Source of the DNA: a virus
Virus record (IMG/VR): IMGVR_UViG_3300032322_001991
Span: 1-59,932 of that record
DNA length: 59,932 nt
Reading direction: 5' to 3' (one strand)
The notes beneath the pieces are model-generated. The model did no database searches and was not told the DNA's origin. It saw nothing but the letters and a program-made list of their open reading frames with translations. This document shows positions 2,612-43,803 of this stretch, piece by piece (positions within the stretch are counted from its first letter, which is position 1; every line of letters begins with the position of its first letter). The position numbers were made by a program, and so were the translations under genes.

Positions 2612-2871
2612 TGGAAACGATCAAGAAGCTCTGGGATTACGCGTGCATCACGTGGCTGTCCCTGACGCCCAAGGCGCAGATCACGGTCCTCGTGGCCTTG
2701 TTCATCATGTTCTTCGCAGGCGCCGTGCTGGCCCAGGGCAAGACCTGGCAAGTGCTGGAGCACGCGTGTGACAAGTCCGGCGCCGTGAACACGCTGGTCA
2801 TCGCCGTGGCCGAGCCCGGCTTCGTGCAGATCAGCTGGGATAACGCCCACGTCTGCGGCAAGGCGTCGTGA
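2611..2871 (+). CDS. small single-pass membrane protein
   Basis: Encodes 86 residues. Its ATG overlaps the previous stop (TGATG) and AAGGGAG lies seven bases upstream. One hydrophobic segment at about residues 24-41 is followed by a short domain with two Cys (about residues 52 and 81) that could form a disulfide outside the membrane. Its GTGA overlap with the terminase start suggests translational coupling. Function is unknown. Confidence 0.65.
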   Translation: METIKKLWDYACITWLSLTPKAQITVLVALFIMFFAGAVLAQGKTWQVLEHACDKSGAVNTLVIAVAEPGFVQISWDNAHVCGKAS

Positions 2872-5800
2872 CCGACCTGGCGTCACTGTCCACAGAGGAG
2901 AAGCTGGAACTTCTTCAGCTTCTGGAGATCCGCGACCGTCGCCAGCGCGAGAACATGCTGGCGTCGTACAAGCCGTACGCCAAGCAGAAGGAATTCCACA
3001 ACGCAGGCGCCACGTACCGTGAACGCCTGTTCATGGCTGCTAATCAGTGCTCAGGCCCGTGGACGTGGGTTGAAACGCCGGGCTCCAAGGCCCTGTCCGT
3101 AGATACGTTTTTCGAGCCAGGTGCACGTGTTCAAGCGTGGGACGGTGAATCTCGATGTGTCGCTCCAGTGCGGCACGGATATCTGAAGGGCATTGAGAAA
3201 GCGTATCGTCTGGTCCTGGAGACGGGAGAGTTCTTTGACGTGACGGCCAGTCACCAAGTGCTGACCGAACAAGGCTGGCTTTCGGTTTCCCGGATAGTGT
3301 CGCTTTCAAGTGGTCTGCGTTGCTGGCAAACAACCGAAGATTTTCTGGCCAGTTGTGTTGCGGGTGGCCGTCTACATGATCCACGACTTCCGCTGGATCC
3401 AGGTAGCGACCCAGCACGACTTCTAGAACGAGTCGGTGCTCGGGAACGTAGCCTGTGCTTCTCGCTTGAGGATGCAGAGGCGCGTACACGCTCACATACC
3501 AGCCTTTTGTCAGACAACGTCCTCCACCCCAACGCTGGCTGTGACCCGCGCCAGATCGAGGCCCTGTGCGCGCAGTTCGCAGGCCCAGCGATGAGCAGTA
3601 GCGTTCTACCGTTGACCGGTGAACACCAAGCCTTCTTGCAACTTGCTCGTGTGTCTCACCTTCTTCCTCAATCAGGCGACGAACCTCGTCTCCTTTCTCT
3701 ACCAGCAGACGTCCTGGTAGGAATTGTGGCTGGATGTTTCTCCTCTGAAGAAAAGACTGCACTACGTGAGTTTTCAGACCGAGTCGCTCGGCTATCTCTT
3801 GACGTGTCAGGCCCTGGGAGTTCCATTGAAGAACTTGGTCAAGATGCGGCTCGACTAGGGACGTTCTACCCATTTGATGGTCCTCGGCTGGTTGGTGGGA
3901 GGACGATCACTGCCGTCGTCCCGATTGGTTACCAGCCGATTCTAGACTGTCATGTGGACAGGGTCAATTGCTATTGGGCAGGCGGGGTGGTGCATCACAA
4001 CAGCGGCAAGACGCTATCTGCTGCATACGAGATCGCGATCCACGCCACCGGCCGCTACCCAGACTGGTGGCAAGGCCGTCGGTTCCATCGCCCGGTCAGC
4101 ATCCTCGTCGGCTCGGAGTCGGGCGAACTGACCCGCAAGGGCCTGCAGCGCCTGATCGTGGGCTCGCCCCAGAAGCGGGAAGAGTGGGGCACTGGTGCGA
4201 TTCCTAAGGAGTGCCTGGGCAACACGACGATGAAGCCCGGCGTGCCTGACGCGCTGGCCAGCGTGACTGTCAAGAACGAGTACGGCGGAGAGTCCGTCAT
4301 CCAGTTCAACAGTTATGACCAAGGGCGCATGCAGCACGTTGATAGCCGGGTGCTGACCCCCACCGGCTGGAAACGAATCGGAGACATTCAGCCGGGCGAC
4401 GAAGTCATCACTGTCGACGGTTCAGCGACGCGTGTGCTCGGCGTATTCCCTCACGGCGTCAAAGACCTGTACGAACTCACGTTTGATTCGGGGATCAAAA
4501 CCCTAGCTGGTGCCGAGCACCTGTGGCGTGTTGGAGAGCGCACCCGCGGCCCGTGGAGAACGGTCGAGACGGCCGAGCTCATCCATCGCTACGGGGACAC
4601 TGGCGAAAGGATCAACAGCAACGACCAGGTGTCGATTCCGCACGTCGCTCCCGTTCAGTTCCCAGCCAAGCCAGTTCCGCTTGACCCGTACTTGGTCGGA
4701 GCGCTTTTGGGGGACGGTTGCGTTCGCCAGAATCGCGTGCGTTTTACGTCAAAAGATGAGCAGGTCGTGGCAGAGGTCGCAGCCGGAGCGTTTAAATCTG
4801 GCGCTCAAATTGCTCGATGGGGCGATATTCAATATGGGTTCAGGGACTCTCAAGGCATTCGAGAAGCCTTAAAAGACCTGGGCCTGGCGGACCTTGGCGC
4901 GCTGGAGAAACGAGTTCCTCACGACTACTTGTGGAACGAGCCTGAGGTTCGGTTTGCAGTTCTTCAAGGGCTGATGGACACGGACGGCTCAGTGTCTGTT
5001 AAGGGCACCATGTCGTTTTCTACGACCTCGCGTGGCCTGGCCGAGGACGTGTCCTTCCTTGTGCGGTCGTTCGGCGGAAAAGCCATTTTGCGCAGCAAGG
5101 GGCAAAAGAACCGCAACAACGAGCTGTTCCTCGTGTCCATTCGGATGCCGGGGCCTCCACCGTTCAGGCTTCAGAGAAAGCTAGACCGCTGCATAAGGCC
5201 GGAATCAGAAACGCACCGGCATCTTCTCCGGACAATCAAGAGGGTTGAGCCTGGCGAGGCGGTTTGCATTGCAGTTGAGCACCCGTCTCATCTGTACGTC
5301 ACCGATGATTTCATCGTCACCCACAACACCAAGTGGCAGGCGGACACGATCGATATCGTTGCGATGGACGAAGAGCCTCCGATGGATATCTACACGGAGG
5401 CGCTGACCCGGACCAACGCGACGGGCGGTATCGTCTTCGTCACGTTCACCCCGCTGCTGGGCATGTCCCAGGTGGTCAAGCGCTACCTGACGGAGAAGCC
5501 CGAGGGTACGACCGTCATCCGCATGACGATCGACGATGCGGAGCACTACACCCCCGAGGAGCGTGCGCGGATCATCGCCGCCTACCCTGAGCACGAGCGG
5601 GAGGCCCGGACGAAGGGCATCCCGATGCTTGGCAGCGGCGCGGTGTTCCCCGTGGCCGAGTCCGCGATCAGCGTGGCACCGTTCGAGATCCCCGCCCATT
5701 GGGCACGGATCAACGGGATCGACTTCGGCTGGGACCACCCGACTGGCTTCGTCTGCATGGCCCACGACAGGGACACGGACACGGTCTACGTGTACGACGC

Positions 5801-6299
5801 CTGGAAGCTGAAGCAGACCCCCGTCATGACTCAGGCCGGGATGGTCGTAGGCAAGGGGTACCAGAACATACCCTGGGCCTGGCCGCATGACGGCCTCCAG
5901 CATGACAAGGGGTCTGGCGAAGTCCTGAAGGACCAGTACCAGAAGTTCGGCATGAACATGCTCTCGGAGAGGGCCCAGTTCGAGAACCGTCCTGACGGGA
6001 AGCCGGGTGGCAACAGCCTTGAGGCTGGTGTATCGATGATGCTGGAGAGAATGCAAACACGCAGACTACGCGTGTTTTCCAACCTGGAGGACTGGTTCTC
6101 GGAGTTCCGGCTGTACCACCGGAAGGAAGGGATCATCGTCAAGGAGGACGACGACATTCTGTCCGCGACGCGCTACGGGATCATGATGCTGCGCAAGGCG
6201 AAGACCTTGCTGGAGATGGAACCGAGCCGTGGCACTTTCAACCGACCCGCTGCGAACCTGCCTGTTTTCCAGGTGTTCAACGCGGACTGTGCGTACTGA
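2868..6299 (+). CDS. terL: terminase large subunit precursor with two inteins
   Basis: DNA-packaging motor protein with an N-terminal ATPase and a C-terminal RNase H-like nuclease. The 1143-residue precursor would mature to 492 residues after removal of inteins at residues 61-378 and 488-820, a normal TerL length. Joining the exteins restores Walker A as AANQSGKT, the YDQGR-TKWQ segment, and Walker B as IVAMDEEPP. The nuclease half has GIDFGWDHPTG (first acidic residue), a WPHDG segment and a late EDDDILSATRYG segment. The start is GTG and overlaps the upstream stop. Both inteins interrupt the ATPase core, so splicing is required for activity. Intein 1 also contains an antisense gene. Confidence 0.95.
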   Translation: MTDLASLSTEEKLELLQLLEIRDRRQRENMLASYKPYAKQKEFHNAGATYRERLFMAANQCSGPWTWVETPGSKALSVDTFFEPGARVQAWDGESRCVAPVRHGYLKGIEKAYRLVLETGEFFDVTASHQVLTEQGWLSVSRIVSLSSGLRCWQTTEDFLASCVAGGRLHDPRLPLDPGSDPARLLERVGARERSLCFSLEDAEARTRSHTSLLSDNVLHPNAGCDPRQIEALCAQFAGPAMSSSVLPLTGEHQAFLQLARVSHLLPQSGDEPRLLSLPADVLVGIVAGCFSSEEKTALREFSDRVARLSLDVSGPGSSIEELGQDAARLGTFYPFDGPRLVGGRTITAVVPIGYQPILDCHVDRVNCYWAGGVVHHNSGKTLSAAYEIAIHATGRYPDWWQGRRFHRPVSILVGSESGELTRKGLQRLIVGSPQKREEWGTGAIPKECLGNTTMKPGVPDALASVTVKNEYGGESVIQFNSYDQGRMQHVDSRVLTPTGWKRIGDIQPGDEVITVDGSATRVLGVFPHGVKDLYELTFDSGIKTLAGAEHLWRVGERTRGPWRTVETAELIHRYGDTGERINSNDQVSIPHVAPVQFPAKPVPLDPYLVGALLGDGCVRQNRVRFTSKDEQVVAEVAAGAFKSGAQIARWGDIQYGFRDSQGIREALKDLGLADLGALEKRVPHDYLWNEPEVRFAVLQGLMDTDGSVSVKGTMSFSTTSRGLAEDVSFLVRSFGGKAILRSKGQKNRNNELFLVSIRMPGPPPFRLQRKLDRCIRPESETHRHLLRTIKRVEPGEAVCIAVEHPSHLYVTDDFIVTHNTKWQADTIDIVAMDEEPPMDIYTEALTRTNATGGIVFVTFTPLLGMSQVVKRYLTEKPEGTTVIRMTIDDAEHYTPEERARIIAAYPEHEREARTKGIPMLGSGAVFPVAESAISVAPFEIPAHWARINGIDFGWDHPTGFVCMAHDRDTDTVYVYDAWKLKQTPVMTQAGMVVGKGYQNIPWAWPHDGLQHDKGSGEVLKDQYQKFGMNMLSERAQFENRPDGKPGGNSLEAGVSMMLERMQTRRLRVFSNLEDWFSEFRLYHRKEGIIVKEDDDILSATRYGIMMLRKAKTLLEMEPSRGTFNRPAANLPVFQVFNADCAY
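3040..3873 (-). CDS. HTH-HTH-HNH homing endonuclease encoded antisense inside TerL intein 1
   Basis: Encodes 277 residues from the ATG at 3873, with GAGG (3882-3885 on the plus strand) eight bases upstream and a near-consensus promoter at 3939-3967. Two helix-turn-helix units lie at about residues 21-47 and 72-98. An HNH nuclease core at about 125-196 includes EHRLVLE (145-151), VVDHVDG (163-169), N174, PENL (176-179) and SNADH (184-188). This resembles HNH proteins of phages that combine DNA-recognition modules with a cleavage domain. The recognisable protein spans only the intein region between splicing blocks B and F. Residues after about 200 are the reverse of blocks A and B and look unconserved. 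Its TAG stop lies eight bases outside the intein, in extein DNA. Expected role: cutting intein-free terL alleles. Confidence 0.85.
   Translation of the reverse strand: MGRTSLVEPHLDQVLQWNSQGLTRQEIAERLGLKTHVVQSFLQRRNIQPQFLPGRLLVEKGDEVRRLIEEEGETHEQVARRLGVHRSTVERYCSSLGLRTARTGPRSGAGHSQRWGGGRCLTKGWYVSVYAPLHPQARSTGYVPEHRLVLEVVLGRYLDPAEVVDHVDGHPQHNWPENLRLFASNADHLKATLSGKPKASLVRSALGDWPSRQRTLPSPGPDDTLSQCPSDIRAALERHIEIHRPTLEHVHLARKTYLRTGPWSPAFQPTSTGLSTD
3048..4001 (+). mobile_element. TerL intein 1 (class 1) at Walker A
   Basis: A 318-residue intein (TerL residues 61-378). Cys61 starts block A. Block B contains T-A-S-H. Block F is DCHVDRVNCYWAGGVV, and the C-terminal His-His-Asn precedes Ser379. Excision rejoins ANQ to SGKT, the ATP-binding P-loop. 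The part between blocks B and F (about TerL residues 145-335) contains no endonuclease motif in this frame and reads as featureless Ser/Arg/Leu-rich linker. The opposite strand of this same part encodes a complete HNH endonuclease. Confidence 0.9.
3939..3967 (-). promoter_or_regulatory. antisense promoter for the intein-nested HNH gene
   Basis: On the minus strand, TTGACC (-35, 3962-3967) and TAGAAT (-10, 3939-3944) are separated by 17 bases, with five of six matches to sigma70 consensus at each box. The expected start is about 60 bases upstream of the HNH ATG at 3873. The element lies inside the plus-strand codons for intein block F, so one sequence serves protein splicing on one strand and promoter function on the other. 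Its spacer contains GACAGTC, seen in other promoter candidates here. Confidence 0.65.
4329..5327 (+). mobile_element. TerL intein 2 (class 3) with in-frame LAGLIDADG endonuclease
   Basis: A 333-residue intein (TerL residues 488-820) between YDQGR and TKWQ, just before Walker B. The first residue is Met, not Cys or Ser. Block A then reads DSRVLTPTGW. Class 3 inteins splice through a Trp-Cys-Thr set, and all three positions are visible: Trp in GAEHLW of block B, Cys in AVCIAVEH of block F, and Thr821 after the terminal His-Asn. Two LAGLIDADG-type motifs are in frame: LVGALLGDG and LQGLMDTDG. It appears to be a full, possibly active element. Confidence 0.9.
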
Positions 6300-6389
6300 A
6301 TCCGCTCGGTGGGGTGGAGACGCGAAGCCTTCGAGCGAATGGTGGCGTGGCGCCGGCCCGCGTAAGAAGGCAGCCGGCACCTGACAAAC

Positions 6390-8633
6390 ATGGACCAAGA
6401 CAAAGACGATGACGCAGTAGGACGCGAGGCCGCTCGACAGGAGCGGCTGCAGGCGTTCGGCCGCTCGCTTGCGTCCATGCGCGACAAGTGGATCCGCTCC
6501 CGCGCCGCGACCGGTTGGGACAAGAGGATCGTCGAGTCGCTCGACCAGTACCACGGCAAGGACCCGGCGACGCGGATGGCTGCGTCGATGATGGAGTCGG
6601 TCTACCAGGGATACCCGGTCACCGTCCGCGAGGCCCTGCCGACGCGTTCGACGGTGTTCGTCGGTATCACCCGGCAGAAGACCAACAGCGCCGAGGCCCG
6701 GCTGGCTGACATCCTGCTGCCCACCGACGACCGCAACTGGGGCATCAAGCCGTCTCCGGACCCCGACCTGGCCAAGGCGATCACGGACGACGACGAGCTC
6801 GTCGACCCGGCCACGGGCGAGCCGATCTTGTTCGACATCCAGGGCAACGTCGTCGACAACCCTCAAGAAGGCCGCCCGGCGAAGAAGTCGCAGATCGCCC
6901 AGGCCGTTCAACAGGTGGCTAGGCAGGCCGCCGACGCGATGCTGATGGAGATCGACGACCAGCTGGTCGAGTGCGACTACAACGGCGAGATCCGCAAGGT
7001 GATCCACGACGCTGCCGTGATGGGCACGGGCGTGATCAAGGGTCCGATGGTGACCCGAAGGACGCGCAAGGCCTGGCGGCAGAAGAAGGATCCGGTCACT
7101 GGCGAGAAGATGTACGTGATGGAGATCGTGGACGAGCTCCGCCCGGCCTCGTTCCGCGTCGACCCGCGCTTCGTCTGGGAGGACCCGACCTGCGGTGACG
7201 ACGTGAAGAAGGGCCGCGGTGTGTTCGAGCTGGCCGAGATCAACGACAAGCAGGTCCGAGACCTGGCCAAGCAGCCCGGGTACATCAAGGCCCAGCTGCG
7301 AGAGGTCATCGAGCAGGGGCCGATGCGAAGCGCTGCCCTGTACGAGATCCAGCGCACGGAGATCGACAAGAACAACAGCGAGGACGGGAAGAGCTTCCAG
7401 CACTGGATCTACTGGGGCGACCTCGACCGGAAGGACCTGGCCGCGGCTGGGGTCGAGGTGGGCGACGAAGACGACCCGCTCCTGTCGATCAGCGGGTGCG
7501 TGGAGATGATCAACGACGTCGTCGTCCGCGCGTACCTGAACCCCCTCGAAGACGGGTCGATCCCGTACGACTTCTACCCCTGGGAGAAGGTCACCAGCTC
7601 AGCCCGCGGGTACGGCATTCCGTACCTGATGAAGTCCCAGCAGAGCGTGACCAACTCCGCTTGGCGGATGCTGATGGACAACCTGGGCGTCACCTCGGGC
7701 CCTCAGATCGTGGTCAAGCGTGGCGCCGTGACGCCGGCCGACGGTCAGTGGACGCTGACCCCTCGCAAGTTCTGGTACCTGACAGACGACTCGATCGACG
7801 TCAACAAGGTCTTCGCCTCGTTCCAGTTCGAGAACCATCAGGCGCAGCTGGCCGCGGTGATCGAGATGGCCGAGAAGATCGTCGACCAGGAGACGGCCAC
7901 GCCGATGATGGCCCAGGGCCAGCAGGGCTCCGCTCCGGAGACGGTTGGCGGGATGCAGCTGCTGATGAACGGCGCCAACGTGGTCCTGCGCCGGCTGGTC
8001 AAGCAGTTCGACGACTACGTCACGAAGCCCCACATCCGTCGCTACTACGACTACAACATGGCGTACAGCGAGAAGGACGAGATCAAGGGCGACTTCCAGA
8101 TCGACGCACGTGGATCGAGCGCATTGATCATCCGTGACATCCAGAACCAGGCCTTCACGAATCTGTTGGCGATTGGTGGCAATCCTGCATATGCGGAGAT
8201 GATTGACAGGAAGAAGTTGTTCGAGAAGGCGCTTCGTGCTCAGCAGATCGACCCTCGGGACGTGATGCTGACCGACGAGCAGATCGAAGAGAACCGCAAG
8301 GCCAACCCGCCTCAGCCGGATCCGAGGATCGCAGCGGCCCAGATCAACGCCGAGGCCAGGATGATGGAGGCCCAGGCGGTGGCCGCCGGCCGCGCTGCCG
8401 AGACCGAGGCCCGCACCGAGAGCGAGGTCGAGAACCGGCGCCTGCGGATGCTGGAGCTGCAGCTCAAGCACGACCTGGCGGTGATGCAGATGGCCACTCA
8501 GCAGCAGATCACCGTGCAGCAGGTCAAAGCCCAGCTGGCCCAGACGGCGCTGCACGACAGGACCAAGAAAGAACTCGCGGCGAGCGAGATGATCTTCAAA
8601 GAGAAGGACAGCCCTGACGGGCAGGGAATCTGA
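6390..8633 (+). CDS. portal protein
   Basis: The 747-residue portal forms the dodecameric ring through which DNA is packaged and to which the tail attaches. It has the podovirus (P22-like) pattern: an acidic helical N-terminus, a central alpha/beta wing and stem with FYPWEKVTSSARGYGIPYLM, and a long C-terminal helical barrel rich in Ala, Gln and Glu (about residues 620-735). It directly follows the terminase and precedes the scaffold and capsid genes. Bases 6300-6389 before it hold no gene. Confidence 0.85.
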   Translation: MDQDKDDDAVGREAARQERLQAFGRSLASMRDKWIRSRAATGWDKRIVESLDQYHGKDPATRMAASMMESVYQGYPVTVREALPTRSTVFVGITRQKTNSAEARLADILLPTDDRNWGIKPSPDPDLAKAITDDDELVDPATGEPILFDIQGNVVDNPQEGRPAKKSQIAQAVQQVARQAADAMLMEIDDQLVECDYNGEIRKVIHDAAVMGTGVIKGPMVTRRTRKAWRQKKDPVTGEKMYVMEIVDELRPASFRVDPRFVWEDPTCGDDVKKGRGVFELAEINDKQVRDLAKQPGYIKAQLREVIEQGPMRSAALYEIQRTEIDKNNSEDGKSFQHWIYWGDLDRKDLAAAGVEVGDEDDPLLSISGCVEMINDVVVRAYLNPLEDGSIPYDFYPWEKVTSSARGYGIPYLMKSQQSVTNSAWRMLMDNLGVTSGPQIVVKRGAVTPADGQWTLTPRKFWYLTDDSIDVNKVFASFQFENHQAQLAAVIEMAEKIVDQETATPMMAQGQQGSAPETVGGMQLLMNGANVVLRRLVKQFDDYVTKPHIRRYYDYNMAYSEKDEIKGDFQIDARGSSALIIRDIQNQAFTNLLAIGGNPAYAEMIDRKKLFEKALRAQQIDPRDVMLTDEQIEENRKANPPQPDPRIAAAQINAEARMMEAQAVAAGRAAETEARTESEVENRRLRMLELQLKHDLAVMQMATQQQITVQQVKAQLAQTALHDRTKKELAASEMIFKEKDSPDGQGI

Positions 8634-8635
8634 CT

Positions 8636-8881
8636 ATGAGCACTCCCAACAGCAACACCCCCCTGTTCCCCACTTGCGCCCAGGCGCTGACGGTCGCGGA
8701 CGTGGACCTGCCCCCGGGTTCGATCTACGTCGGCACGGGCGGCGCGGTGTCGGTGATGCCCGCCGACGGCCCGGGCCCGGTGACGTTCGTCGGGATGAAC
8801 GCCGGCCAGGTCGTCCCCGTGCTGGTCAAGGGCCTGCGCGCGTCCGGCACGACCGCCCAGAACCTGGTCTTCGTTCGCTGA
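8636..8881 (+). CDS. small beta-rich virion protein
   Basis: Encodes 81 residues that alternate Gly/Val/Thr in short strands, with GSIYVGTGGAVSVM and TFVGMNAGQVVPVLVKGLRASGTTA segments. This pattern is common in short proteins encoded beside portal or capsid genes in many phages, probably as a spike, decoration or stabilising subunit. No membrane segment or signal is present. It fits tightly between portal and the next gene. The structural role is inferred from position and composition. Confidence 0.65.
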   Translation: MSTPNSNTPLFPTCAQALTVADVDLPPGSIYVGTGGAVSVMPADGPGPVTFVGMNAGQVVPVLVKGLRASGTTAQNLVFVR

Positions 8882-8882
8882 C

Positions 8883-11086: not shown

Positions 11087-11093
11087 GCTTGAT

Positions 11094-11122: not shown

Positions 11123-11172
11123 GGCTTCAGTCTCGATAGCACATCACTATTGCATCGAGAACCACTCCACCA

Positions 11173-11397: not shown

Positions 11398-11411
11398 CGC
11401 AAGGGTAGGAA

Positions 11412-12292: not shown

Positions 12293-13351
12293 ATGGCAAT
12301 TCAAGGCTACAGCACCGTCGCATCGCGGAACCTGATCCGCGCTGCCCAGGACATGCTGGCTCACGCTCAGCCGATCACCGTTCTCGGTGACTTCGGCACC
12401 CAGCGCCAGATGCCGCAGAACGCGACCGACACGCTGGTCTTCCGTCGCACGCTGCCGTTCGCGGCCAGCACGACCGGCACGACCATCGAGAACTCGCAGC
12501 GGTACATCGGCACCCCCGTCGTCGCCCCGAACAACTTCGTTCTGGGTGAGGGCGCGACGCCGAACGCGAACACGTTGGCGTTCCAGGACGTCACCGTCCA
12601 GCTGCAGCAGTACGGTCTGCTGTTCAAGTTCTCGTCCAAGGTCGAGCTGCTCTACGAGGATGACATCCCCGGCGAGATGGTCAAGATCACGGGCGAAACG
12701 ATGGCCGAGGTGCTGGAGCTGGTCCGCTACGGCGTGCTGAAGGCCGGCTCGACGATCGTCTACGCGAACGGCTCCAGCCGGTCGGCGGTCAACACCCCGA
12801 TCAGCCTGAACGCCCTCCGTCGCGCGGCCCGTACGCTGGAGAGCAACCGCGCCAAGCGCGTGACCTCCCGCCTGGCCCCGGGCGTGAACTTCGGCACCCG
12901 TGCGGTCCAGCCGGCGTTCATCGTGTTCGTCCACACGGACGCGGTGGCCGACATCCGCAACTTGCCGGGCTTCACCCGCGTGGAAGAGTACGGCTCGTTC
13001 AAGCCGATCCACGAGATGGAGATCGGCGCCTGCGAAGACTTCCGCTTCTTGAAGTCGCCCCTGCTGTCGGCCTTCCTGGCTGCCGGCTCGTCGACCCTCA
13101 ACGGCTGCCTGTCGCTGGGCGCCGCGAACGTGGACGTGTACCCGTTCCTGGTGATCGGCGAGGACTGCTGGGGCCAGGTCGCGCTGAAGGGCATGAACGC
13201 GATCACGCCTCGTGTCCTGAAGTCGGGCGACATCAACCACGCCAACCCGCTGGGCCAGTTCGGCTACGTGGGCGCGAGCACCTGGTTCGCCGCCGTCCGC
13301 CTCAACGAGGCCTGGATGGCGCGTATCGAGTGCGGCGTGACGGCGCTCTGA
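12293..13351 (+). CDS. major capsid protein, N4-gp56-like family
   Basis: The 352-residue shell subunit has a HK97-type fold by family. The N-terminus SRNLIRAAQDMLAHAQPI is followed by a domain with FSSKVELLYEDD and MAEVLELVRYGVLKAG. FIVFVHTDAVADIRNLPGF then leads into EEYGSF...IHEMEIG...FRFLKSP. This order of motifs is the signature of the N4-gp56 capsid family. A strong hairpin follows the stop, as expected for a highly expressed gene. Confidence 0.85.
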   Translation: MAIQGYSTVASRNLIRAAQDMLAHAQPITVLGDFGTQRQMPQNATDTLVFRRTLPFAASTTGTTIENSQRYIGTPVVAPNNFVLGEGATPNANTLAFQDVTVQLQQYGLLFKFSSKVELLYEDDIPGEMVKITGETMAEVLELVRYGVLKAGSTIVYANGSSRSAVNTPISLNALRRAARTLESNRAKRVTSRLAPGVNFGTRAVQPAFIVFVHTDAVADIRNLPGFTRVEEYGSFKPIHEMEIGACEDFRFLKSPLLSAFLAAGSSTLNGCLSLGAANVDVYPFLVIGEDCWGQVALKGMNAITPRVLKSGDINHANPLGQFGYVGASTWFAAVRLNEAWMARIECGVTAL

Positions 13352-36007: not shown

Positions 36008-36278
36008 GCCGCCAGCGTTCCGGGCTGCAGGCAACGGCCCGGCAGTGCCGGCATTCTGGAACCATGCTGGCACACAACCAACGGAAAAACGTGTGTCAGT
36101 GTGCAACGTCATGCAAGCCTAAGTGCATGATTCTCCGATAGAAATTCCCCCGTCTGAGGGGGCCTTGGTGCCGGCTGAGGGACCCGTACACCGGCCTGAA
36201 GCCCGCATGTTTGCTTGACCCCTTGTGGCCCGGTCACAGTTCTGGCACAGTACACGCTCCACCACCAAGGAGCAGTAG
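36008..36278. other. intergenic region before integrase, possible attP area
   Basis: No gene is seen. It contains a 10-pair hairpin (36045-36054 with 36064-36073, one G-T pair) and a second inverted repeat, CCCCC (36147-36151) with GGGGG (36158-36162). AAGGAG lies six bases before the integrase ATG. The attachment site of such phages often lies beside the integrase gene, but no tRNA-like end or direct repeat was found to locate it. Confidence 0.4.
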
Positions 36279-37295: not shown

Positions 37296-37321
37296 ACCCA
37301 GCTGCTCGCGGAAGTAGGGGC

Positions 37322-37522
37322 TCACTGGGGTCCCTCGATCAGCACCTTGATCGCGTCCGCGATCGAGCGGGAGGTCTCCTCCCACGAGTCCGAGTCGTAG
37401 AACTTGCAGTGCAGGTCGACCTGGACCACGCCTTCGTCGACCGCCGTGGCGGTGTAAACGATCTCGTTGTCCATCTCGGTGTCGTGCCCGCAGATCTTGT
37501 TGACTTTGTTCTTGATGGTCAT
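37322..37522 (-). CDS. hypothetical small acidic protein
   Basis: Encodes 66 residues from the ATG at 37522 with AGGTG upstream; an upstream GTG-type extension looks unreal. The chain is alpha/beta, with two Cys (about residues 11 and 38) and an acidic C-terminal helix. Last gene of the leftward operon, convergent with integrase. Its start overlaps the excisionase-like gene by four bases. Function is unknown. Confidence 0.6.
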   Translation of the reverse strand: MTIKNKVNKICGHDTEMDNEIVYTATAVDEGVVQVDLHCKFYDSDSWEETSRSIADAIKVLIEGPQ

Positions 37523-37704
37523 CGCTGCACCTTTTCTTCCATCCACCTCTCGACGTCGATCCGACGCCACAGCACCCGGCGGCTGCCGGGGATCTTCATC
37601 CGCGGGGGCAGAACGTGCGGCCGGCGGCTGACGTCTGCCTTGACGGTGTTCACGGACATCCGCAGGAATTCAGCGAGTTCCTTGACGGTCAGAATGTGGG
37701 GCAT
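37519..37704 (-). CDS. AlpA/excisionase-like HTH protein
   Basis: Encodes 61 residues. It starts ILTVKELAEFLRMSVNTVKADVSRR, a MerR/AlpA-type helix-turn-helix, followed by a wing with a basic loop and WRRIDVERWMEEK, the typical end of excisionase-like (HTH_17) proteins. A strong GGAGG lies seven bases upstream. Its place beside the integrase suggests a directionality factor or regulator of integrase. Single-domain proteins like this may also be transcription regulators. Confidence 0.75.
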   Translation of the reverse strand: MPHILTVKELAEFLRMSVNTVKADVSRRPHVLPPRMKIPGSRRVLWRRIDVERWMEEKVQR

Positions 37705-37999
37705 TGTCTTTCCTCCAACGAAGAACTGTTCGTTTGCTCACGTTCAAGAAGGACGAGACAGACAACGCGTCCCATCCAGACCTCATCATGTCCAGGGCCT
37801 TGATCTTGGCGGCCTCTCTCCGCCTGGCTCGGACCCACTGCACGGCTCGGTCGTGTGCTCGTCCTTGCGTGTTGATCGAGACCCACACCTCAATCGGTAC
37901 CTCGATCGTGGTATAGCGGACCCCGTCACTGCGCTCGTACCTTCTGCGTACGAAACCGTCCTTTGACGACCTTGTCTGCAGGCACTTCGAATCCTTCAC
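37670..37999 (-). CDS. HTH DNA-binding protein, unknown role
   Basis: Encodes 109 residues from a GTG start that overlaps the upstream stop (GTGA). The N-terminal part is beta-like with Arg/Lys. The second half is helical and holds a helix-turn-helix-like stretch, MMRSGWDALSVSSFLNVSKR, then TVLRWRKD. Its 3' end overlaps the excisionase-like gene by 35 bases. It may regulate the integration or early genes. Confidence 0.6.
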   Translation of the reverse strand: MKDSKCLQTRSSKDGFVRRRYERSDGVRYTTIEVPIEVWVSINTQGRAHDRAVQWVRARRREAAKIKALDMMRSGWDALSVSSFLNVSKRTVLRWRKDNAPHSDRQGTR

Positions 38000-38379
38000 T
38001 CGACAACCTCTTCCCAGTCTTTCAGCTTCTCCGCGGCCCGGTCCCAGGTCTTATGCACCCGGGACATGTCGAACACGTCCACGGGCGCCGAGGCCACCGC
38101 GAGCTGAGCGAAGCTCCACTTCGAAATCTCGCACGCCGTCCGGGGCCTGACCCTGGTCAAGGCCAGCTCGCGGTTGTAGTGGTCGATGCTCTTCTGCGTG
38201 GGCACGAACAGCATGTCGTTGCCGAGGACGGCCACCTTCTTTCCCGCGGGGGCGATGTAATCGTTCTCGACCAAGTAGTCGACGGCTTCGATCATCCGCT
38301 CCCGGCCCATCCTCAAGCCCCAGCAGTCGATCGTCTGCAGGCACAGAGGGTCCTTGCTGAGGACGAACTCGACGATCAG
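37996..38379 (-). CDS. hypothetical protein with uncertain start
   Basis: The reading frame is clearly protein-like from about 38400 down to 37996 (IVEFVLSKDP, GRERMIEAVDYLVENDYIAPAG, FDMSRVHKTWDRAAEKL), with a winged-helix-like arrangement. No ATG, GTG or TTG lies close to the region that begins to look real. A CTG overlapping the upstream stop (38379) is given as a provisional start. Alternatives are ATG at 38310, giving 104 residues, or a GTG at 38628 that would fully overlap the upstream gene with unlikely Arg/Pro-rich sequence. Confidence 0.5.
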   Translation of the reverse strand: MIVEFVLSKDPLCLQTIDCWGLRMGRERMIEAVDYLVENDYIAPAGKKVAVLGNDMLFVPTQKSIDHYNRELALTRVRPRTACEISKWSFAQLAVASAPVDVFDMSRVHKTWDRAAEKLKDWEEVVE

Positions 38380-38621
38380 CTTTTCCCAGTCTGTGTGCTT
38401 TGCCTGTCTCTTTCCTCCTCGATGAGACCCAGCGCGAGCTCCCTCTTCTCCCTCCGGTACCTCGCAGCCAAAGCCTTCATCTGCTTCTGGGTCTCGTAGT
38501 GCCTGCCGGACTCGTCGGAAAGCCAACCGCGGAGGCTTCTGATCTCGTTCCTCTGAAAGAGGATGACGCCCAGGAGGGCGGCCACGACGGCGGCCGCTAG
38601 GAGGTAGAGAATGATTTCCAT
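38376..38621 (-). CDS. membrane-anchored coiled-coil protein
   Basis: Encodes 81 residues. The N-terminal hydrophobic helix at residues 3-21 is followed by a basic, then mixed-charge coiled coil. It resembles small inner-membrane proteins of the spanin type, but no lipoprotein partner is nested in it and it is far from the lysis genes. It is one of three successive membrane proteins in this operon. Confidence 0.65.
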   Translation of the reverse strand: MEIILYLLAAAVVAALLGVILFQRNEIRSLRGWLSDESGRHYETQKQMKALAARYRREKRELALGLIEEERDRQSTQTGKS

Positions 38622-38935
38622 CAGACACGTCCAGCCAACCGAATTGACGCGGCGTGGAGCCGCTCTTGAAACCAGCGCCGAATGGCGTACTGGCGGAGGA
38701 TGCTGACCGAAGTGTAGATCCACCCCATCCAGAAGTTCTGGGTCAGGGTGATCTCCGCCTCGATCAGCGGGAGGATCAGAAGGTTCGCGATGAAGTTCAC
38801 CGAGAACCCCAGGACGATGTTCGCCCACGCCTCGATGATAGCGGCCCGGGGGTCCTTCCCGCCGTGGTAGGTAGTCCATGTGAACCAGGCTACGAAGATG
38901 AACGAGGCCGCCCCGAGGACGGTGAGCAGGGTCAC
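38621..38935 (-). CDS. membrane protein, DUF7220-like
   Basis: Encodes 104 residues from a GTG start, with GGAGG eight bases upstream. Two or three transmembrane helices are seen, including FVAWFTWTTYHGG and a second segment around IVLGFSVNFIANLLILPLI, then a helical basic tail. The EAWANIVLGFSVNF pattern resembles what I recall as DUF7220 phage proteins. Function is unknown. Confidence 0.6.
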   Translation of the reverse strand: MTLLTVLGAASFIFVAWFTWTTYHGGKDPRAAIIEAWANIVLGFSVNFIANLLILPLIEAEITLTQNFWMGWIYTSVSILRQYAIRRWFQERLHAASIRLAGRV

Positions 38936-39111
38936 GGGAGATGCCTCCAGGCCAGCGTCAGGAGGGAGACCGCGATCATCATCACACCCACGATGAAAGA
39001 CACGACCCCGATCGTATCCGCGTGGTTCCACCGCATGGCGTTCGGGCCGCCGAAGAAGTTGACGATCAGCCAGCCGATGGCTATCAGGATCGCTCCCGCG
39101 GTGAAGATCAT
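38932..39111 (-). CDS. small two-helix membrane protein
   Basis: Encodes 59 residues with two hydrophobic helices (about residues 3-20 and 34-53) joined by a polar loop. AGGGG lies seven bases before the ATG. Both ends overlap neighbours by four bases, so translation is probably coupled. No family is recognised. Confidence 0.6.
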   Translation of the reverse strand: MIFTAGAILIAIGWLIVNFFGGPNAMRWNHADTIGVVSFIVGVMMIAVSLLTLAWRHLP

Positions 39112-39755
39112 TGCTCGCCCCTCTCGTCGTAGGTCACGGTCGACGTGTCGCCCAGGCGCCACTTGGACGTGTTTTCCACTCTGTACTCTTGTGTGCAAAC
39201 CTTGAAGTCGGGGCGCAGGAGTTCGGAGTGTGTGAGGGCGGGGTCGAAGAAACGGCAGCGGTTGTTCGGCTGCAGCGCGAACTGGCCATTGTCCAGCTTG
39301 ATCAGGTTGAAGCTCTTGTGCTCCTCGGCCGTCTCGCTGAAGCCAAAGTCGGGGATCCTCGGGTCGGGGCTGCACGAGTCGATCGTGAGCATGTACTCGC
39401 CCGGGTGCAGCTTGCGATCCTTGCCGAAGAACTCCGCACGCAAGCCCTTCAGCAGGGGCTTCTCGACGACGTCCACGTGGTAGCTCATGCAGTCCCAGAT
39501 CTGGAGCATGTCCAGGGCCAGCAGCTCGCCGGCAGGGGCGTCGCTGTGCCACAGGAATGCGCTGACCGGCAGCTTGTCGTAGAGCGCGCCGTACTGGGGC
39601 AGGTACGTCTCGAACCGGAAAGCCTGGCCGCGGATGGACTTCAGGCTGACCCAGATCCCCTCGACCGTGTTGCCGAGCTTGTCCGGGTCGTGTCCGTACA
39701 AATACTCGCTGCGGACCTGCACCTTGACGGGCGGGAGCGGGGTAACGAAACTCAT
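39108..39755 (-). CDS. conserved phage protein, unknown function
   Basis: Encodes 215 residues from the ATG at 39755 with GGAG eight bases upstream. It is an alpha/beta soluble protein with many aromatic residues. Segments include EYLYGHDPDKLGNTVEGIWVSL, LWHSDAPAGELLALDMLQIWDCMSY and a C-terminal part rich in basic and aromatic residues. No catalytic signature stands out. Its place in the nucleotide/replication operon may mean an early role. Confidence 0.6.
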   Translation of the reverse strand: MSFVTPLPPVKVQVRSEYLYGHDPDKLGNTVEGIWVSLKSIRGQAFRFETYLPQYGALYDKLPVSAFLWHSDAPAGELLALDMLQIWDCMSYHVDVVEKPLLKGLRAEFFGKDRKLHPGEYMLTIDSCSPDPRIPDFGFSETAEEHKSFNLIKLDNGQFALQPNNRCRFFDPALTHSELLRPDFKVCTQEYRVENTSKWRLGDTSTVTYDERGEQ

Positions 39756-40009
39756 CGTCTGGTCTCCATGAACTCGGTCTTGCACCACTGCTTGTCCACG
39801 AACAGGGACAGGTGGATCGTCCGCCCGTACTGAGCCTGCCACTCGACCACTCGCGTGCGCAGGTTCTTGGCGATCGCCGCGGCCGCGTCGTTCACGACGG
39901 CGTCAGCGACACGCTGCAGGCGTTGGCGAATCGTTTCCCGCAGCTGGGCCTCCAGGCCCTCCGCCACGAGGTCTGCGATCCTGTGCTCGCTCAGACGGAC
40001 CTTGGCCAC
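39752..40009 (-). CDS. hypothetical helical protein
   Basis: Encodes 85 residues, mainly helical with many Ala, Arg and Val residues, and a final beta-like segment (YGRTIHLSLFVDKQWCKTEF). No membrane segment or motif. It overlaps the next gene by four bases and follows the MazG-like gene after a one-base gap. Confidence 0.55.
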   Translation of the reverse strand: MAKVRLSEHRIADLVAEGLEAQLRETIRQRLQRVADAVVNDAAAAIAKNLRTRVVEWQAQYGRTIHLSLFVDKQWCKTEFMETRR

Positions 40010-40010
40010 G

Positions 40011-40313
40011 TCACTCCTTCACAAACGTCCCGTCGAGCATGAGCCTGCCCTTGCGGTCCTTGATCTGCTCGTATGCGCCAGCGAAGCACCGGACCAGGTC
40101 GATGTCCTTCAACGCGCAATAGGCCACGAGACAAACAACCACGTCGCCGACGGCGTCCTTGATCGCGTCCAGGTCCTTCTTGCCCTCAGCATCACAGAGC
40201 TCGCCCATCTCGCTGACTGCCTTCAGCAGCTGACTCGCGGGCGATGCGTTTGGAATGATCCCGCGGGCCTCGGCCCAACGGATGACTTCCAACTCGGTCG
40301 TGCGGTAGTTCAT
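40011..40313 (-). CDS. MazG-like nucleotide pyrophosphohydrolase
   Basis: Encodes 100 residues. The all-alpha NTP-PPase pattern is visible: LLKAVSEMGELCDA, with the E-x-x-E metal site, then IKDAVGDVVVCLVAYC with the D-x-x-x-D site. Enzymes of this type hydrolyse (d)NTPs to monophosphates, lowering toxic or unwanted nucleotides or reducing the alarmone response. It is translationally coupled with the DUF5664-like gene upstream and close to the DNA polymerase, so nucleotide-pool control during replication is likely. Confidence 0.8.
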   Translation of the reverse strand: MNYRTTELEVIRWAEARGIIPNASPASQLLKAVSEMGELCDAEGKKDLDAIKDAVGDVVVCLVAYCALKDIDLVRCFAGAYEQIKDRKGRLMLDGTFVKE

Positions 40314-40744
40314 TGGCCTACGGTGTCCTTGATCGTGTAGTGCCGCGGGTTCTTGTCGGCATGCTTGTCGATGATTCGACCGGCCGCCTCGTTCAGCTCG
40401 CTGTAGAACGGCTTGCTCGAAGGGAACCGGTCGTCTTCGCACATGCCCTGGATCTGCGCGTCTCGCCACACGGTCAGAGATGCGATCGCTTTGGTCAGGT
40501 GGCTCATGCCACTGTCGGGATCGAGGTCTTCGCCTTCCCAGTAGGCGATCAAGTGCCGCATGGTCGCGTCGAAATACACGCTTGACCGAACGCCCACCGC
40601 GCGGAAATTCCCTCTTCCATATTTGCTCGCGCCTTCGAGCATGGCCACGCCGAGCTCCGCAACAACGGCCATCGGGACAACAGACAGGGGCGCTTTGCGA
40701 ACGCCGACACAGTCCTTCGGATTGCTCGCTTTGATCTCGCTCAC
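40310..40744 (-). CDS. DUF5664-like phage protein, possible dATP/dGTP hydrolase-related
   Basis: Encodes 144 residues from a GTG with GGAGG eight bases upstream. It has the family pattern NPKDCVGVRKAPLSVVPMAVV, EGASKYGRGNFR, RHLIAYWEGEDLDPDSG and HLTKAIASL. The domain is often described as the N-terminal part of dATP/dGTP diphosphohydrolases and occurs in many phages next to MazG-like genes, as here. Enzymatic activity is not proven by sequence. Confidence 0.75.
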   Translation of the reverse strand: MSEIKASNPKDCVGVRKAPLSVVPMAVVAELGVAMLEGASKYGRGNFRAVGVRSSVYFDATMRHLIAYWEGEDLDPDSGMSHLTKAIASLTVWRDAQIQGMCEDDRFPSSKPFYSELNEAAGRIIDKHADKNPRHYTIKDTVGQ

Positions 40745-43700
40745 TTCTTAAACCTCCTCGAACGGTATGCCTCGTAGCTCAGCGGAAGGTCCGCGTACCA
40801 GTCGGCAGGCTTGCACATCAGTCGCCCAAATTCTTCCTCGGATCCAAAGCCCTCGGGCACGTGGGCCATCAGCTCGTCGTGGGCCATCAGCACGATCGGG
40901 TACCCGGCGGCCTCGACGTTCATCGCGCCCTGGGCCAGGATGTCGCGAGCGGTGCCCTGCACAGCGCTCTGGTAGATGCTGCTGCCGATCAGCTTGTGCC
41001 GGCAGAACTTGCGCGTGTACGTGTCGACAGACTCGACCGTGACCACCGGCCGGCGGGCCTTGCGCTTCTCGGTGGCGCCCGTCTCCGGGTTGTAGAAGTC
41101 CTCGAACCAGGGCGCGTCCTGAATCTCCACACGAGGCGACGACCAGGCGATCACGCGGCCGCTCGGCAGACGCATCCAGAGGAAGTTCTTGTGGACTTTC
41201 AGCGCCAGCTTCTCGCCGGCCTTGAACCACTCGCCAGGGTTCTGCGTGGCCTTGATCGAGGCGTCGCCGCAGGCGTACCAGAGCTTGCGCACCTTGTCGT
41301 ACTCGCTGCGGTAGGCGTTCACGACCCCCTCGCTGCGCGCGAGCGTGAGCGTGACGCCGTACCCCTTCGCGTAGTCGATCAGCCCCTGCGGGCCTTGGCC
41401 GAAAAGGCAGTTGTGCGCAATAACAACTCCGGCGTCAGTCCGTATTGCAAATCGACTCCGAGGTCCGCAGTTCACGATGTCGTACGTATGCTCCTCGGCA
41501 ACCGGACTGCGCGGCGATGATCTGCTCGGGACTTTGGCCCTCTCGAATCTTGCGAGCGACGGTTCCGGAAGACCGGTACGAGGAGCAATACTTTTGCCAG
41601 AAATCGCGGGCGGTGAGAGTCTCGCCTGCCCATACAACCCGGTGAGTTCGGCGCGTGTTTGAACACTGTTCCTTGCGCGTTGCCAGCCTGCAGTTATCCG
41701 GCGAGTAGGGCCCGTCGTTGTCCACACGTTCCAGCTCAAGCTTGGGGTTGTCCCAGCCCGGCTGGGCCACGACCCAGCGCAGAAAAGCCGCGCCGTCGTA
41801 GCGCCACTCATCGCAAAAGAATATGCCGCGCTGGCCGTAGTTTGGATAGTGGCGGCAATCTGGGTCGTGGCAACGAGCGATTGCACCCAGCCTACGATTG
41901 AGCCAACGCTCTCGCAAAGCCGAATCCGGAATGATGCTTGCGTAGCCGGTTTTGTCTCGGAGAACCTGGTGCGTGTCGGAGTTTGCGCACCACCTGCACG
42001 CTCGGGACGTTCCGCGTTTAAGGTTGTAGAAAGGCACCACCCGTTCGACGCCGCATTCACACCGAACGCGGGCCGCAATCTCTTTTCTGTATCTTTCGTG
42101 GCCGATAACAGTCCAGCGGCTAAACACGTCGCCGATCTCAGGTCGACCAAGTCTGCTCGTTCCCATCCGTTTTCCTGAAGAAGCAAGTGCTCCGGCGTAA
42201 CCCGCACGCCAGCAAGGTCTATGACCGCTTTCTTTCCCTGGTAAACGACCCCGCCGTGCTCTACGAAATCAACGCCATCCCATATTCGGTCATTGTTGCG
42301 GACTTGGTGTATGGGCACAAACCCCCTACAAGTCAGCACTTCCGTGTCCGCAGCAAAGCACCCAAGCACGGCGCTCTTGCTCATCTGGCGCATGTCTTTC
42401 GTGACCTGGTCGTACGGCACGTTGTAGAGGCTCGTGCTGGCGAAGACCTTGTACTCGTCCAGGCCCTTGGCAAACATGTCGACCTTGTCCTGCTGCCCGG
42501 CCAGCCACACGCCGACCCGGTTCTCCACCGAGCTGTAGTCAGCGTCGATGAAGTCGTGCCCTGGCTTGGCCTTGAGCACGCCGCGGATGCAGCTCACGGC
42601 CGCGTCCATGACATCGTCGCCCCACAACAGGATCGCGGCCTCGTGGTCGCCCGAGCCGAGAATCACGTGCGCGTTGGCGATGTCGTCGAGGCCCTTCTTC
42701 TCGTTAACCATCAGCGTGGGCCGAGCGATGTTTTGCACGTTGAAGCCACCTCGGCTGGCCCACCGACCGGTGCCCGCGCCGTGGTACACGAACAGGTTCT
42801 TCATCGTGCCGTCGTCGGCGGCGATCTTCAGTATCCGGTCGTACTTGGCCGTGCTCGTTTGGCAGACGGCAGCGCGGATCTCCAAGGCTCGGCGCACCTC
42901 GGGCGTCAGGTCGGTCCTCTTGAGCACGGACTCTACCGTGTCCCCGGTCATGTCCGGCATCAGGTCGTCGGTGTCCTTCTCCTCGTCGAAGGTCACCGGC
43001 TCGGCGAGGCCATGCTGCTCGTTGACCCATGTCAGCAGCCCGTTGCGATTGGTGGCTCGCAACACCCGCCGGCCGGTGATCCGTCTGAGTTCCCTGTTCA
43101 GCCGCTCCTTCTCGTCCTCGACCAGGGTGCGGATGTTCTTCGCCTCGTCCAGTGCCACGGGCACGCCACGCAGGTTCATCCTCTGCGTGAGCAGCCACAC
43201 CTCCTGCTCGAAGTCGGACAGCGGGCGTAGCTTGGCGGCTACAGCCTCCTCCGCGACCACATCTTGGGTGTTGTACGGGACGAACTCGGCGAACAGCTTC
43301 TCGTCCTCGACCCACTTTCCCGGCCGAGTCTTCGTGGGCGGATGGGGCTTGCACAACCTCTGGATCAGGTACTTGCCACGCTTGTCCTTCTGCTTGTCTG
43401 CCGGCAGGCCGAGCACCTTGGCGCACTCGCCTAGCTTCTGAGGCAGGTTCATCGCCGCTGCCTGCGCCATCGTGTCGACGCACTGCTCCAGCTTCAACGG
43501 TGGCCAGCCGTACTTGGGCACGCAGACGTTGGCCCAGATGTTGCATTCGAACATCGCGTTCCAGGCCCGGATGCGGCCGCCCGAGGCAACGTGGTCGAGC
43601 AGCTGCTCCAGCTCCTGACGTCGGCACCAGTCGTCGGACAGGTGCGGCCCGCGGTGGGACACGACCGGCACGGCCATGTCCGGCATGCGGAAGGCCAGCA

Positions 43701-43803
43701 TCAGAGCCTCGCACTCGGGATCCTTCGAGTAGCGCTCGACACCGAGCTTGATGTCGGTGGCACTGCGTGACTCAAAGTCGATCGGTACGATGCTCGTGCT
43801 CAT
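40741..43803 (-). CDS. family A DNA polymerase precursor with intein
   Basis: Replicative polymerase with 3'-5' exonuclease and polymerase domains. The 1020-residue precursor becomes 703 residues after removal of the intein at 482-798. Exonuclease motifs are DFES (9-12), WNAMFECNIW (81-90) and YNTQD (177-181). Polymerase motif A is DADYSSVENR (420-429). Motif B (the O-helix) is RQMSKSAVLG joined to CLFGQG. Motif C is HDE at 975-977. The intein splits the O-helix that binds dNTPs, so only spliced protein can work. The start overlaps a very short upstream frame (ATGA). Member of the leftward replication operon. Confidence 0.9.
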   Translation of the reverse strand: MSTSIVPIDFESRSATDIKLGVERYSKDPECEALMLAFRMPDMAVPVVSHRGPHLSDDWCRRQELEQLLDHVASGGRIRAWNAMFECNIWANVCVPKYGWPPLKLEQCVDTMAQAAAMNLPQKLGECAKVLGLPADKQKDKRGKYLIQRLCKPHPPTKTRPGKWVEDEKLFAEFVPYNTQDVVAEEAVAAKLRPLSDFEQEVWLLTQRMNLRGVPVALDEAKNIRTLVEDEKERLNRELRRITGRRVLRATNRNGLLTWVNEQHGLAEPVTFDEEKDTDDLMPDMTGDTVESVLKRTDLTPEVRRALEIRAAVCQTSTAKYDRILKIAADDGTMKNLFVYHGAGTGRWASRGGFNVQNIARPTLMVNEKKGLDDIANAHVILGSGDHEAAILLWGDDVMDAAVSCIRGVLKAKPGHDFIDADYSSVENRVGVWLAGQQDKVDMFAKGLDEYKVFASTSLYNVPYDQVTKDMRQMSKSAVLGCFAADTEVLTCRGFVPIHQVRNNDRIWDGVDFVEHGGVVYQGKKAVIDLAGVRVTPEHLLLQENGWERADLVDLRSATCLAAGLLSATKDTEKRLRPAFGVNAASNGWCLSTTLNAERPERAGGAQTPTRTRFSETKPATQASFRIRLCESVGSIVGWVQSLVATTQIAATIQTTASAAYSFAMSGATTARLFCAGSWPSRAGTTPSLSWNVWTTTGPTRRITAGWQRARNSVQTRAELTGLYGQARLSPPAISGKSIAPRTGLPEPSLARFERAKVPSRSSPRSPVAEEHTYDIVNCGPRSRFAIRTDAGVVIAHNCLFGQGPQGLIDYAKGYGVTLTLARSEGVVNAYRSEYDKVRKLWYACGDASIKATQNPGEWFKAGEKLALKVHKNFLWMRLPSGRVIAWSSPRVEIQDAPWFEDFYNPETGATEKRKARRPVVTVESVDTYTRKFCRHKLIGSSIYQSAVQGTARDILAQGAMNVEAAGYPIVLMAHDELMAHVPEGFGSEEEFGRLMCKPADWYADLPLSYEAYRSRRFKK
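41410..42360 (-). mobile_element. DNA polymerase intein (class 1) in the O-helix motif
   Basis: A 317-residue intein from Cys482 to Asn798, followed by Cys799. Block A is CFAADTEVLTCRGF, block B is VTPEHLLLQENGW with the T-x-x-H, block F is HTYDIVNCGPRSRFAI, and the end is Ala-His-Asn. The interior of this frame has no endonuclease motif and is made largely of Thr, Ala, Ser, Arg, Gly and Pro residues. The same DNA, read in another frame on the same strand, encodes a full HNH endonuclease. Confidence 0.9.
41435..42166 (-). CDS. HNH homing endonuclease overprinted inside the polymerase intein
   Basis: Encodes 243 residues from an ATG with AGGA seven bases upstream, in a different frame of the same strand as the polymerase. 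A treble-clef/zinc-ribbon-like start (GDVFSRWTVIG, Cys36, Cys38, Cys57, Cys60) is followed by an HNH core: YGQRGIFFCDEW (110-121), LERVDNDGPYSPDNCRLAT (145-163), EQCSNTR (166-172). A C-terminal DNA-recognition segment includes AGETLTARDFWQKY. It starts right after block B of the intein and ends nine codons before the intein end. It is probably translated from the polymerase message by internal initiation. Expected role: cutting intein-free polymerase genes. Confidence 0.9.
   Translation of the reverse strand: MGTSRLGRPEIGDVFSRWTVIGHERYRKEIAARVRCECGVERVVPFYNLKRGTSRACRWCANSDTHQVLRDKTGYASIIPDSALRERWLNRRLGAIARCHDPDCRHYPNYGQRGIFFCDEWRYDGAAFLRWVVAQPGWDNPKLELERVDNDGPYSPDNCRLATRKEQCSNTRRTHRVVWAGETLTARDFWQKYCSSYRSSGTVARKIREGQSPEQIIAAQSGCRGAYVRHRELRTSESICNTD

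Follow-up and report, generated by a model that had tools for sequence, protein, structure and literature searches.

Predicted phage inteins that share their DNA with a separate putative HNH gene, antisense at a terminase P-loop and out of frame in a family A DNA polymerase

Inteins are usually pictured as one polypeptide that combines a splicing part with a nuclease part. Among the closest described systems are the mycobacteriophage inteins TerL1-a to -e of the large terminase subunit (TerL), which occupy P-loop and Walker B sites and include both class 1 and class 3 members; nuclease activity has been shown for the BAKA and Bethlehem inteins, the endonuclease is described as a domain of the intein, and the words antisense, opposite strand and overlapping are absent from the main text (PMC5050341). 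The DNA analyzed here, the whole IMG/VR virus record IMGVR_UViG_3300032322_001991 of 59,932 bases (hereafter the window), likewise has inteins at the P-loop (intein 1) and shortly before Walker B (intein 2) of its TerL gene, together with a third in its family A DNA polymerase gene (intein 3). It differs from the mycobacteriophage systems in that the predicted HNH endonucleases of inteins 1 and 3 lie in separate genes overlapping the splicing element, on the opposite strand in intein 1 and on the same strand in another frame in intein 3. We place at roughly 85% the probability that all three insertions are real inteins and that two of them come from lineages whose HNH endonuclease is a separate, overlapping gene, expressed and homing as proposed below.

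Judged by sequence and predicted structure, intein 1 carries the marks of a class 1 intein: an N-terminal Cys, a block B His, a His-Asn end, a Cys, Ser or Thr at position +1, and a Hint fold. Across 49 aligned relatives, C1, H69, Y309 and N318 do not vary, and H317 is nearly invariant; one further relative (L026), excluded from that alignment, terminates SN/C (a slash marks a junction throughout). The AlphaFold model has block means above 90 at residues 1-80 and 281-318 and a poorly predicted spacer between them, and its top Foldseek matches in the PDB are inteins (E = 2.2e-5). Domain searches found no nuclease domain in the own frame of either intein 1 or intein 3. The gene antisense to intein 1 encodes a protein with two helix-turn-helix segments and an HNH_3 domain (Pfam 1.1e-5, above the cut-off; phrog_20891 4.1e-21), and the key residues of its HNH motif are invariant in seven of seven aligned sequences. 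Upstream of this gene, within codons of the intein, lies the sole sigma-70-like site in positions 2900-4600 (0.4 expected), and a Shine-Dalgarno (SD)-like sequence precedes its start (Table 1).

Intein 3 interrupts the polymerase O-helix, and it, too, appears to be a class 1 intein from its C1, block B His, His-Asn end, and predicted Hint fold. Among its relatives (alignments of 22 and 20), C1, T55, H58, H316 and N317 are invariant; AlphaFold predicts confident N- and C-terminal Hint parts, and the top Foldseek matches in the PDB are again inteins (E = 4.4e-4). The gene overprinted on its spacer owes its name to PHROGs, where it matches phrog_374 ('HNH endonuclease'); in Pfam it has no match. 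A shared origin of the antisense and overprinted HNH families was considered and rejected, as hhalign detects no similarity between them.

The antisense arrangement recurs in every close relative that we classified. When virus contigs were scanned with the antisense HNH, 13 loci were found, all of them antisense within an intein adjoining a P-loop. A profile scan, from which the best 80 of 233 relatives were classified along with three found earlier, placed the antisense HNH inside a longer open reading frame (ORF) in 83 of 83 loci, always in a single phase. At the 50 intein boundaries read, a P-loop-like lysine stands no more than five residues past the junction in 49, and the +1 residue is Ser, Thr or Cys in all 50. 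Among 20 host ORFs scanned with Pfam, the hosts include Terminase_6, Terminase_3 and one SNF2-type helicase, some ORFs having no host match; Intein_splicing matches 14 of the 20 at E ≤ 0.01 and is above the cut-off in 4. The orientation is also antisense in all four loci from a scan of bacterial genomes, including Acinetobacter sp. WU_MDCI_Axc73 and Enterobacter cloacae DSM 26481, and, among four phage records, in those of Pectobacterium phage Sabo and Pseudoalteromonas phage PHS3. The other two, Vibrio phage 1.030.O and phiH1, contain only distantly related HNH genes, each annotated as a normal gene in its own right. A splicing-domain search made independently of the nuclease, with a profile from the 7 nearest inteins (all 49 being too diverse), found an antisense HNH in the same phase in 40 of 40 inteins.

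In PHS3 (L176, KX912252.1), the annotation includes the HNH gene but begins TerL downstream of the intein; since the TerL frame continues without a stop across the HNH gene, over 708 codons, the annotated TerL appears short of its N-terminal part. Another locus (L151, 1455-4745) encodes a TerL with two inteins, one carrying an antisense HNH at the P-loop and a second further on.

The overprinted HNH has both intein-borne and free-standing relatives. A scan with it, of which we took the best 80 of at least 579 relatives, found the gene inside a same-strand ORF in 24 of the 26 nearest, in one relative frame and with polymerase exteins or intein blocks around it, and the remaining 54 have no same-strand spanning ORF and are free-standing. 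In two loci (L048 and L098), there is an antisense ORF in another phase, which we take to be accidental. A search with the splicing domain of the polymerase intein (best 80 of 431 relatives) revealed a same-strand, out-of-frame HNH in 80 of 80, in frame +2 in 65 and frame +1 in 15. Frame +2 is found mostly in the O-helix and frame +1 mostly at a second region (YGGK/CVENxxQA or EN/CTQA). Frame +2 also occurs at YGGKLAEN/CVQALSRIVL (L272), in the region usual for frame +1, and at IA/CQSLTRSLIT (L326), so that frame and site are not strictly tied. In a quick tree, each frame forms nearly one group, and a tree of the overprinted HNH with its free-standing homologues requires four changes for three groups (minimum two), three of its rows being long or fragmentary. 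The overprinted form is present in Salmonella and Escherichia coli Guernseyvirinae, in Sodalis phage SO-1 (frame +2), and in APSE-1 (frame +1, P45/P46). The SO-1 polymerase locus (L379, NC_013600.1, 30312-33500) is annotated with a type I self-splicing intron and reads as an intein with an out-of-frame HNH.

Both frames of the shared DNA bear signs of coding. When the HNH genes of the window were shuffled synonymously, the intein frame acquired a mean of 5.8 stops under the antisense gene and 4.2 under the overprinted one, against an actual count of zero (fraction as low, 0.002 and 0.001). Intein-frame stops are likewise zero in 84 of 84 antisense and 28 of 28 overprinted genes, for which the shuffled means range from 1.5 to 12; the fraction as low is ≤0.025 in 81 of the former and ≤0.031 in 27 of the latter. 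The corresponding frame contains 2-19 stops in all 54 free-standing homologues of the overprinted HNH. We also compared amino acid identity in each frame with the level expected from the other, using 38 of 55 antisense representatives (9 near and 29 far, the others dropped for length or set aside manually) and all 16 overprint representatives. For the HNH frame, identity is above the intein-frame null over almost the full length of the gene; for the intein frame, the excess over the HNH-frame null is greatest at the splicing blocks. Where the C-terminal part of the antisense HNH is dual-coded (far group, columns 261-280), identity is 0.63 vs 0.25 for the HNH frame and 0.58 vs 0.19 for the intein frame; because both lie above their nulls, neither explains the other. 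Passive conservation of the antisense frame, a candidate explanation, was rejected on this result. Over the antisense HNH core, intein identity is near its null, which serves as an internal control. Taken as sequence evidence, these comparisons indicate that both reading frames are constrained and that the hidden HNH genes are real and not products of chance.

Expression signals accompany the antisense genes. At the first ATG, an SD sequence of at least 4 nt is found in 32 of 52 representatives (background 11%) and one of at least 5 nt in 20 of 52 (background 3.7%), the window and two of the 55 representatives without an in-frame ATG there having been omitted. Promoter-like sites matching at least 10 of 12 positions lie upstream of 17 of the 55 antisense genes; the figure is 1.1 in Markov shuffles, and recoding the intein frame synonymously gives an expected 3.2 and never more than 10 across 20,000 draws. 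The representatives share ancestry, and neither these nor the SD counts are independent trials. One such site (L138) is perfect.

Occupied and empty alleles, which the sequence-only reading of this DNA had named as a check, are both present among relatives. A near relative (G001, 61,443 bases), with ~98% DNA identity over 1218-7585 and lower identity upstream, has an identical intein 1, an empty site 2 (SYDQGR/SKWQ), and no intein 3 in its polymerase. Searching with the C-terminal part of TerL gave 80 loci, of which 79 were read and one late partial match (L249) was dropped. Site 1 is occupied in two (L179 and L180), site 2 in two others (L182 and L183), and the remaining 75 show neither intein signature by pattern reading; ten loci were inspected closer, and in the nine that lack intein 1 the P-loop sequence is AGNQLGKT. 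With both inteins in the window, intein 1 alone in L179/L180, intein 2 alone in L182/L183, and neither signature elsewhere, all four combinations of the two sites exist. Occupied and empty alleles thus coexist at one precise site, as is expected of a homing endonuclease. At intein 3, the extein DNA of the window and G001 is mostly 95-100% identical beyond ~180 nt on either side. The low identity of the immediate flanks (Table 1) is suggestive, although not proof, of a co-conversion tract in which flanking DNA was copied with the intein.

For splicing, transcription, cutting of the cognate site, and timing, we infer the following scheme. The host ORF would be translated straight through the intein. 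The N- and C-terminal Hint halves would then assemble and excise themselves, taking along as a spacer loop the polypeptide that results when the HNH gene is read out of frame. For the lineage at the TerL P-loop, an antisense transcript would supply the HNH protein, and the sigma-70-like promoter and putative ribosome-binding site dedicated to it lie among codons for the C-terminal region of the intein; the polymerase lineage would use an internal start on the sense mRNA. The HNH enzyme would then cut intein-less alleles of co-infecting phages, and repair would copy the intein together with the HNH gene. TerL is normally a late gene, and this is the likely reason for the antisense form, because a host-type promoter would allow independent, early production of the nuclease.

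Four other explanations were weighed, all of them improbable. The one that survives best, at long odds, holds that the antisense HNH assists TerL in packaging as a cofactor and is not a homing enzyme. HNH proteins can indeed aid terminases (PMC11855218), but the antisense HNH tracks the splicing domain and not the extein: its distances correlate with those of the splicing domain given the extein (partial 0.45) and hardly with those of the extein given the splicing domain (0.08). Moreover, 77 of 79 TerL relatives show no intein at site 1, and the antisense HNH is found in an SNF2-type helicase gene as well (L126, 2640-4910), in an intein at the P-loop of the helicase rather than of TerL.

Fainter still is the case for group I introns with an intron ORF, removed from RNA, in which the in-frame reading would be incidental. 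The SO-1 gp38/gp39 record does note a 'type I self-splicing intron', but the host frame is open throughout, C1, the block B His and the terminal Asn are invariant, and a Hint fold is predicted. Rfam introns were not detected at the gathering threshold in the window, SO-1, APSE-1, L001, L003 or five other loci, and the scan of APSE-1 gave just unrelated small RNAs. We give equally little credence to an insertion of the ShiLan type, in which a non-splicing, out-of-frame HNH is tolerated in the host protein. The same out-of-frame HNH logic is described there, but the ShiLan element has no detectable splicing domain and resides in a dispensable methylase (PMC11855218), whereas the elements described here have invariant splicing residues and interrupt the P-loop and active-site motifs of the polymerase. 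Least credible of all are accidental open frames in GC-rich coding DNA: at the 59-70% GC of the window, long antisense ORFs arise often, but the frames match HNH profiles, keep one fixed phase, and extend in the antisense family to loci of 37-45% GC with enriched SD and promoter sites, and the stop counts together with the conservation of the HNH frame rule out chance for both families.

Several points weigh against the reading of three real inteins, two of them from lineages with an overlapping HNH gene. Among the nearest relatives of the overprinted HNH, one (L029) has an intein frame broken near its start, apparently by one extra base, and another (L040) lacks the spanning ORF. Pfam gives no HNH match for seven overprinted members and two free-standing homologues, nor does the PDB, and the overprint starts are not enriched in SD sequences (3 of 12 at ≥4 nt and 0 of 12 at ≥5 nt). 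The shuffle nulls ignore phylogeny, and the alignments were built in the HNH frame. Other patches of low identity (0.75-0.90) lie farther from intein 3, and old allelic divergence or recombination could also account for the divergence of its flanks. Early expression of the antisense HNH is offered as a hypothesis.

Intein 2 presents a simpler case and reads as a conventional class 3 LAGLIDADG intein. It lies in a conserved SYDQGR.KW stretch about ten residues before Walker B, and its best sequence match in the PDB is the class 3 MchDnaB1 intein (6rix). Class 3 inteins are defined by the absence of a nucleophile at position 1 and by a WCT motif (PMC7664689). Intein 2 begins with M1 in place of a nucleophile, and its H-L-W, Cys and THN align with the W, C and T of 6rix; it shares with MchDnaB1 the H-x-W of block B, the Cys of block F and the Thr of block G (PMC7664689; 6rix). 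Unlike MchDnaB1, it carries a LAGLIDADG domain and sits in TerL. Relatives without it read SYDQGR/SKWQ or SYDQGR/TKWQ, and the site is empty in L006/L007; these alleles set the start of intein 2 at the Met and the predicted spliced TerL at 492 residues (60+109+323).

The sequence-only reading had proposed three inteins with three endonuclease architectures in essential genes, and domain matches, anatomy, and relatives all bear this out; its predicted products, 492 residues for TerL and 703 for the polymerase, agree with the computed boundaries. On sequence grounds, then, all three insertions appear to be real inteins. That reading also placed every site in a catalytic motif, which is correct for the P-loop and the O-helix, but site 2 falls in a conserved stretch and not at a catalytic residue. 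It further saw the three inteins as side-by-side stages in gaining, keeping, or exchanging nucleases, and this idea we abandon. The hidden-HNH forms are fixed, in stable and separate lineages; in-frame or nuclease-less members were not found among the 83 and 40 antisense or the 80 out-of-frame loci; and intein 2, being class 3 (W-C-T), does not represent a stage of inteins 1 and 3, which are class 1. The co-occurrence of the two hidden-HNH forms in one phage looks like coincidence. Elsewhere in the window, we identify an SU10-like portal gene (6390-8633, a weak match), the major head protein (12293-13351), a primase (53384-55915), and an SNF2/DEAD helicase (56462-57901); no tRNA genes were found in the window.

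Table 1. Positions of the inteins, overlapping genes and associated signals in the window
Feature	Position	Strand	Details
TerL gene with two inteins	2868..6299	+	1143 aa; Terminase_6N/6C, LAGLIDADG_3
Intein 1, predicted class 1, 318 aa	3048..4001	+	TerL residues 61-378; C1...HHN/S; P-loop NQ/SGKT
Intein 1 spacer, residues 90-280	3315..3887	+	Mostly opposite HNH gene; predicted local distance difference test (pLDDT) block means 35-80
Antisense HNH gene, 277 aa plus stop	3040..3873	-	Extends 8 nt beyond 5' edge of intein 1
HNH motif of antisense gene	3298..3441	-	EHR...VVDH.D...HN.P.NLR...NADHL
Promoter-like TTGACC-17-TAGAAT	3939..3967	-	Upstream of antisense HNH, within intein codons
Shine-Dalgarno-like AGGA	3881..3884	-	7 nt ahead of antisense HNH ATG
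Intein 2, predicted class 3, 333 aa	4329..5327	+	TerL residues 488-820; M1...THN/T
In-frame LAGLIDADG endonuclease domain	4680..5147	+	PF14528 1.9e-13, two stretches
Family A DNA polymerase gene with intein 3	40741..43803	-	1020 aa; phrog_17 4.9e-76, DNA_pol_A
Intein 3, predicted class 1, 317 aa	41410..42360	-	Polymerase residues 482-798; C1...AHN/C; O-helix VLG/CLFGQG
Intein 3 spacer, residues 78-278	41527..42129	-	pLDDT <50 throughout, predicted disordered; overprinted by HNH gene
Same-strand overprinted HNH gene, 243 aa	41435..42166	-	Frame +2 relative to polymerase; phrog_374 4.9e-39
Intein 3 5' flank	42361..42543	-	52-72% DNA identity to G001; 95-100% in next 300 nt
Intein 3 3' flank	41293..41409	-	50-63% DNA identity to G001

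As far as these sequences indicate, the two families of selfish elements described here are widespread and conserved rather than accidental. We consider it likely, though with less assurance than the account of the window itself, that they represent a large and old class of 'entangled' inteins, in which an autonomous homing endonuclease gene shares the DNA of the splicing element. At the P-loop, the gene would be antisense, with its sigma-70 promoter and ribosome-binding site in intein codons, independent of and probably expressed earlier than the late host gene; in polymerase inteins, it would lie out of frame on the same strand, its frames mainly tied to regions (+2 to the O-helix and +1 to EN-QA), whole lineages having this form only. 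Such lineages would keep the nuclease as a separate gene over the splicing element, once on the opposite strand under signals of its own. If this holds, it would explain how a homing gene within a late gene can act early, and it would offer a natural example in which some 200-280 codons are common to two conserved proteins. It would also mean that these elements have been masked in well-studied phages of Salmonella, E. coli, Hamiltonella, and Pectobacterium by annotation, which is prone to discard one gene of an overlapping pair.

Parts of these elements are annotated singly, as APSE-1 P45/P46, SO-1 gp38/gp39, the Salmonella phage Ent2 gp37 intein, and the PHS3 HNH, and none of these four records joins an intein with its hidden HNH. 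InBase lists APSE polymerase inteins. A search of the open-licence literature, which leaves subscription papers uncovered, found neither an antisense nor an out-of-frame homing gene described in an intein. What is new is therefore the synthesis and the antisense family, the single parts being already present in records. The ShiLan domain and the Pacc40 insertion of phage methylases are similar in that an out-of-frame HNH is accommodated while the host frame stays open; they differ in that they are not inteins, that a splicing domain was not found, that their frames are not called antisense, and that they are known from few phages (PMC11855218). The nuclear group I introns of myxomycetes offer the other parallel, with a homing gene that runs antisense to its splicing element and is expressed and active there; because that element is an RNA intron in rDNA and need not encode a protein (PMC9548176), it is free of the double protein-coding constraint that the inteins of the window appear to bear.

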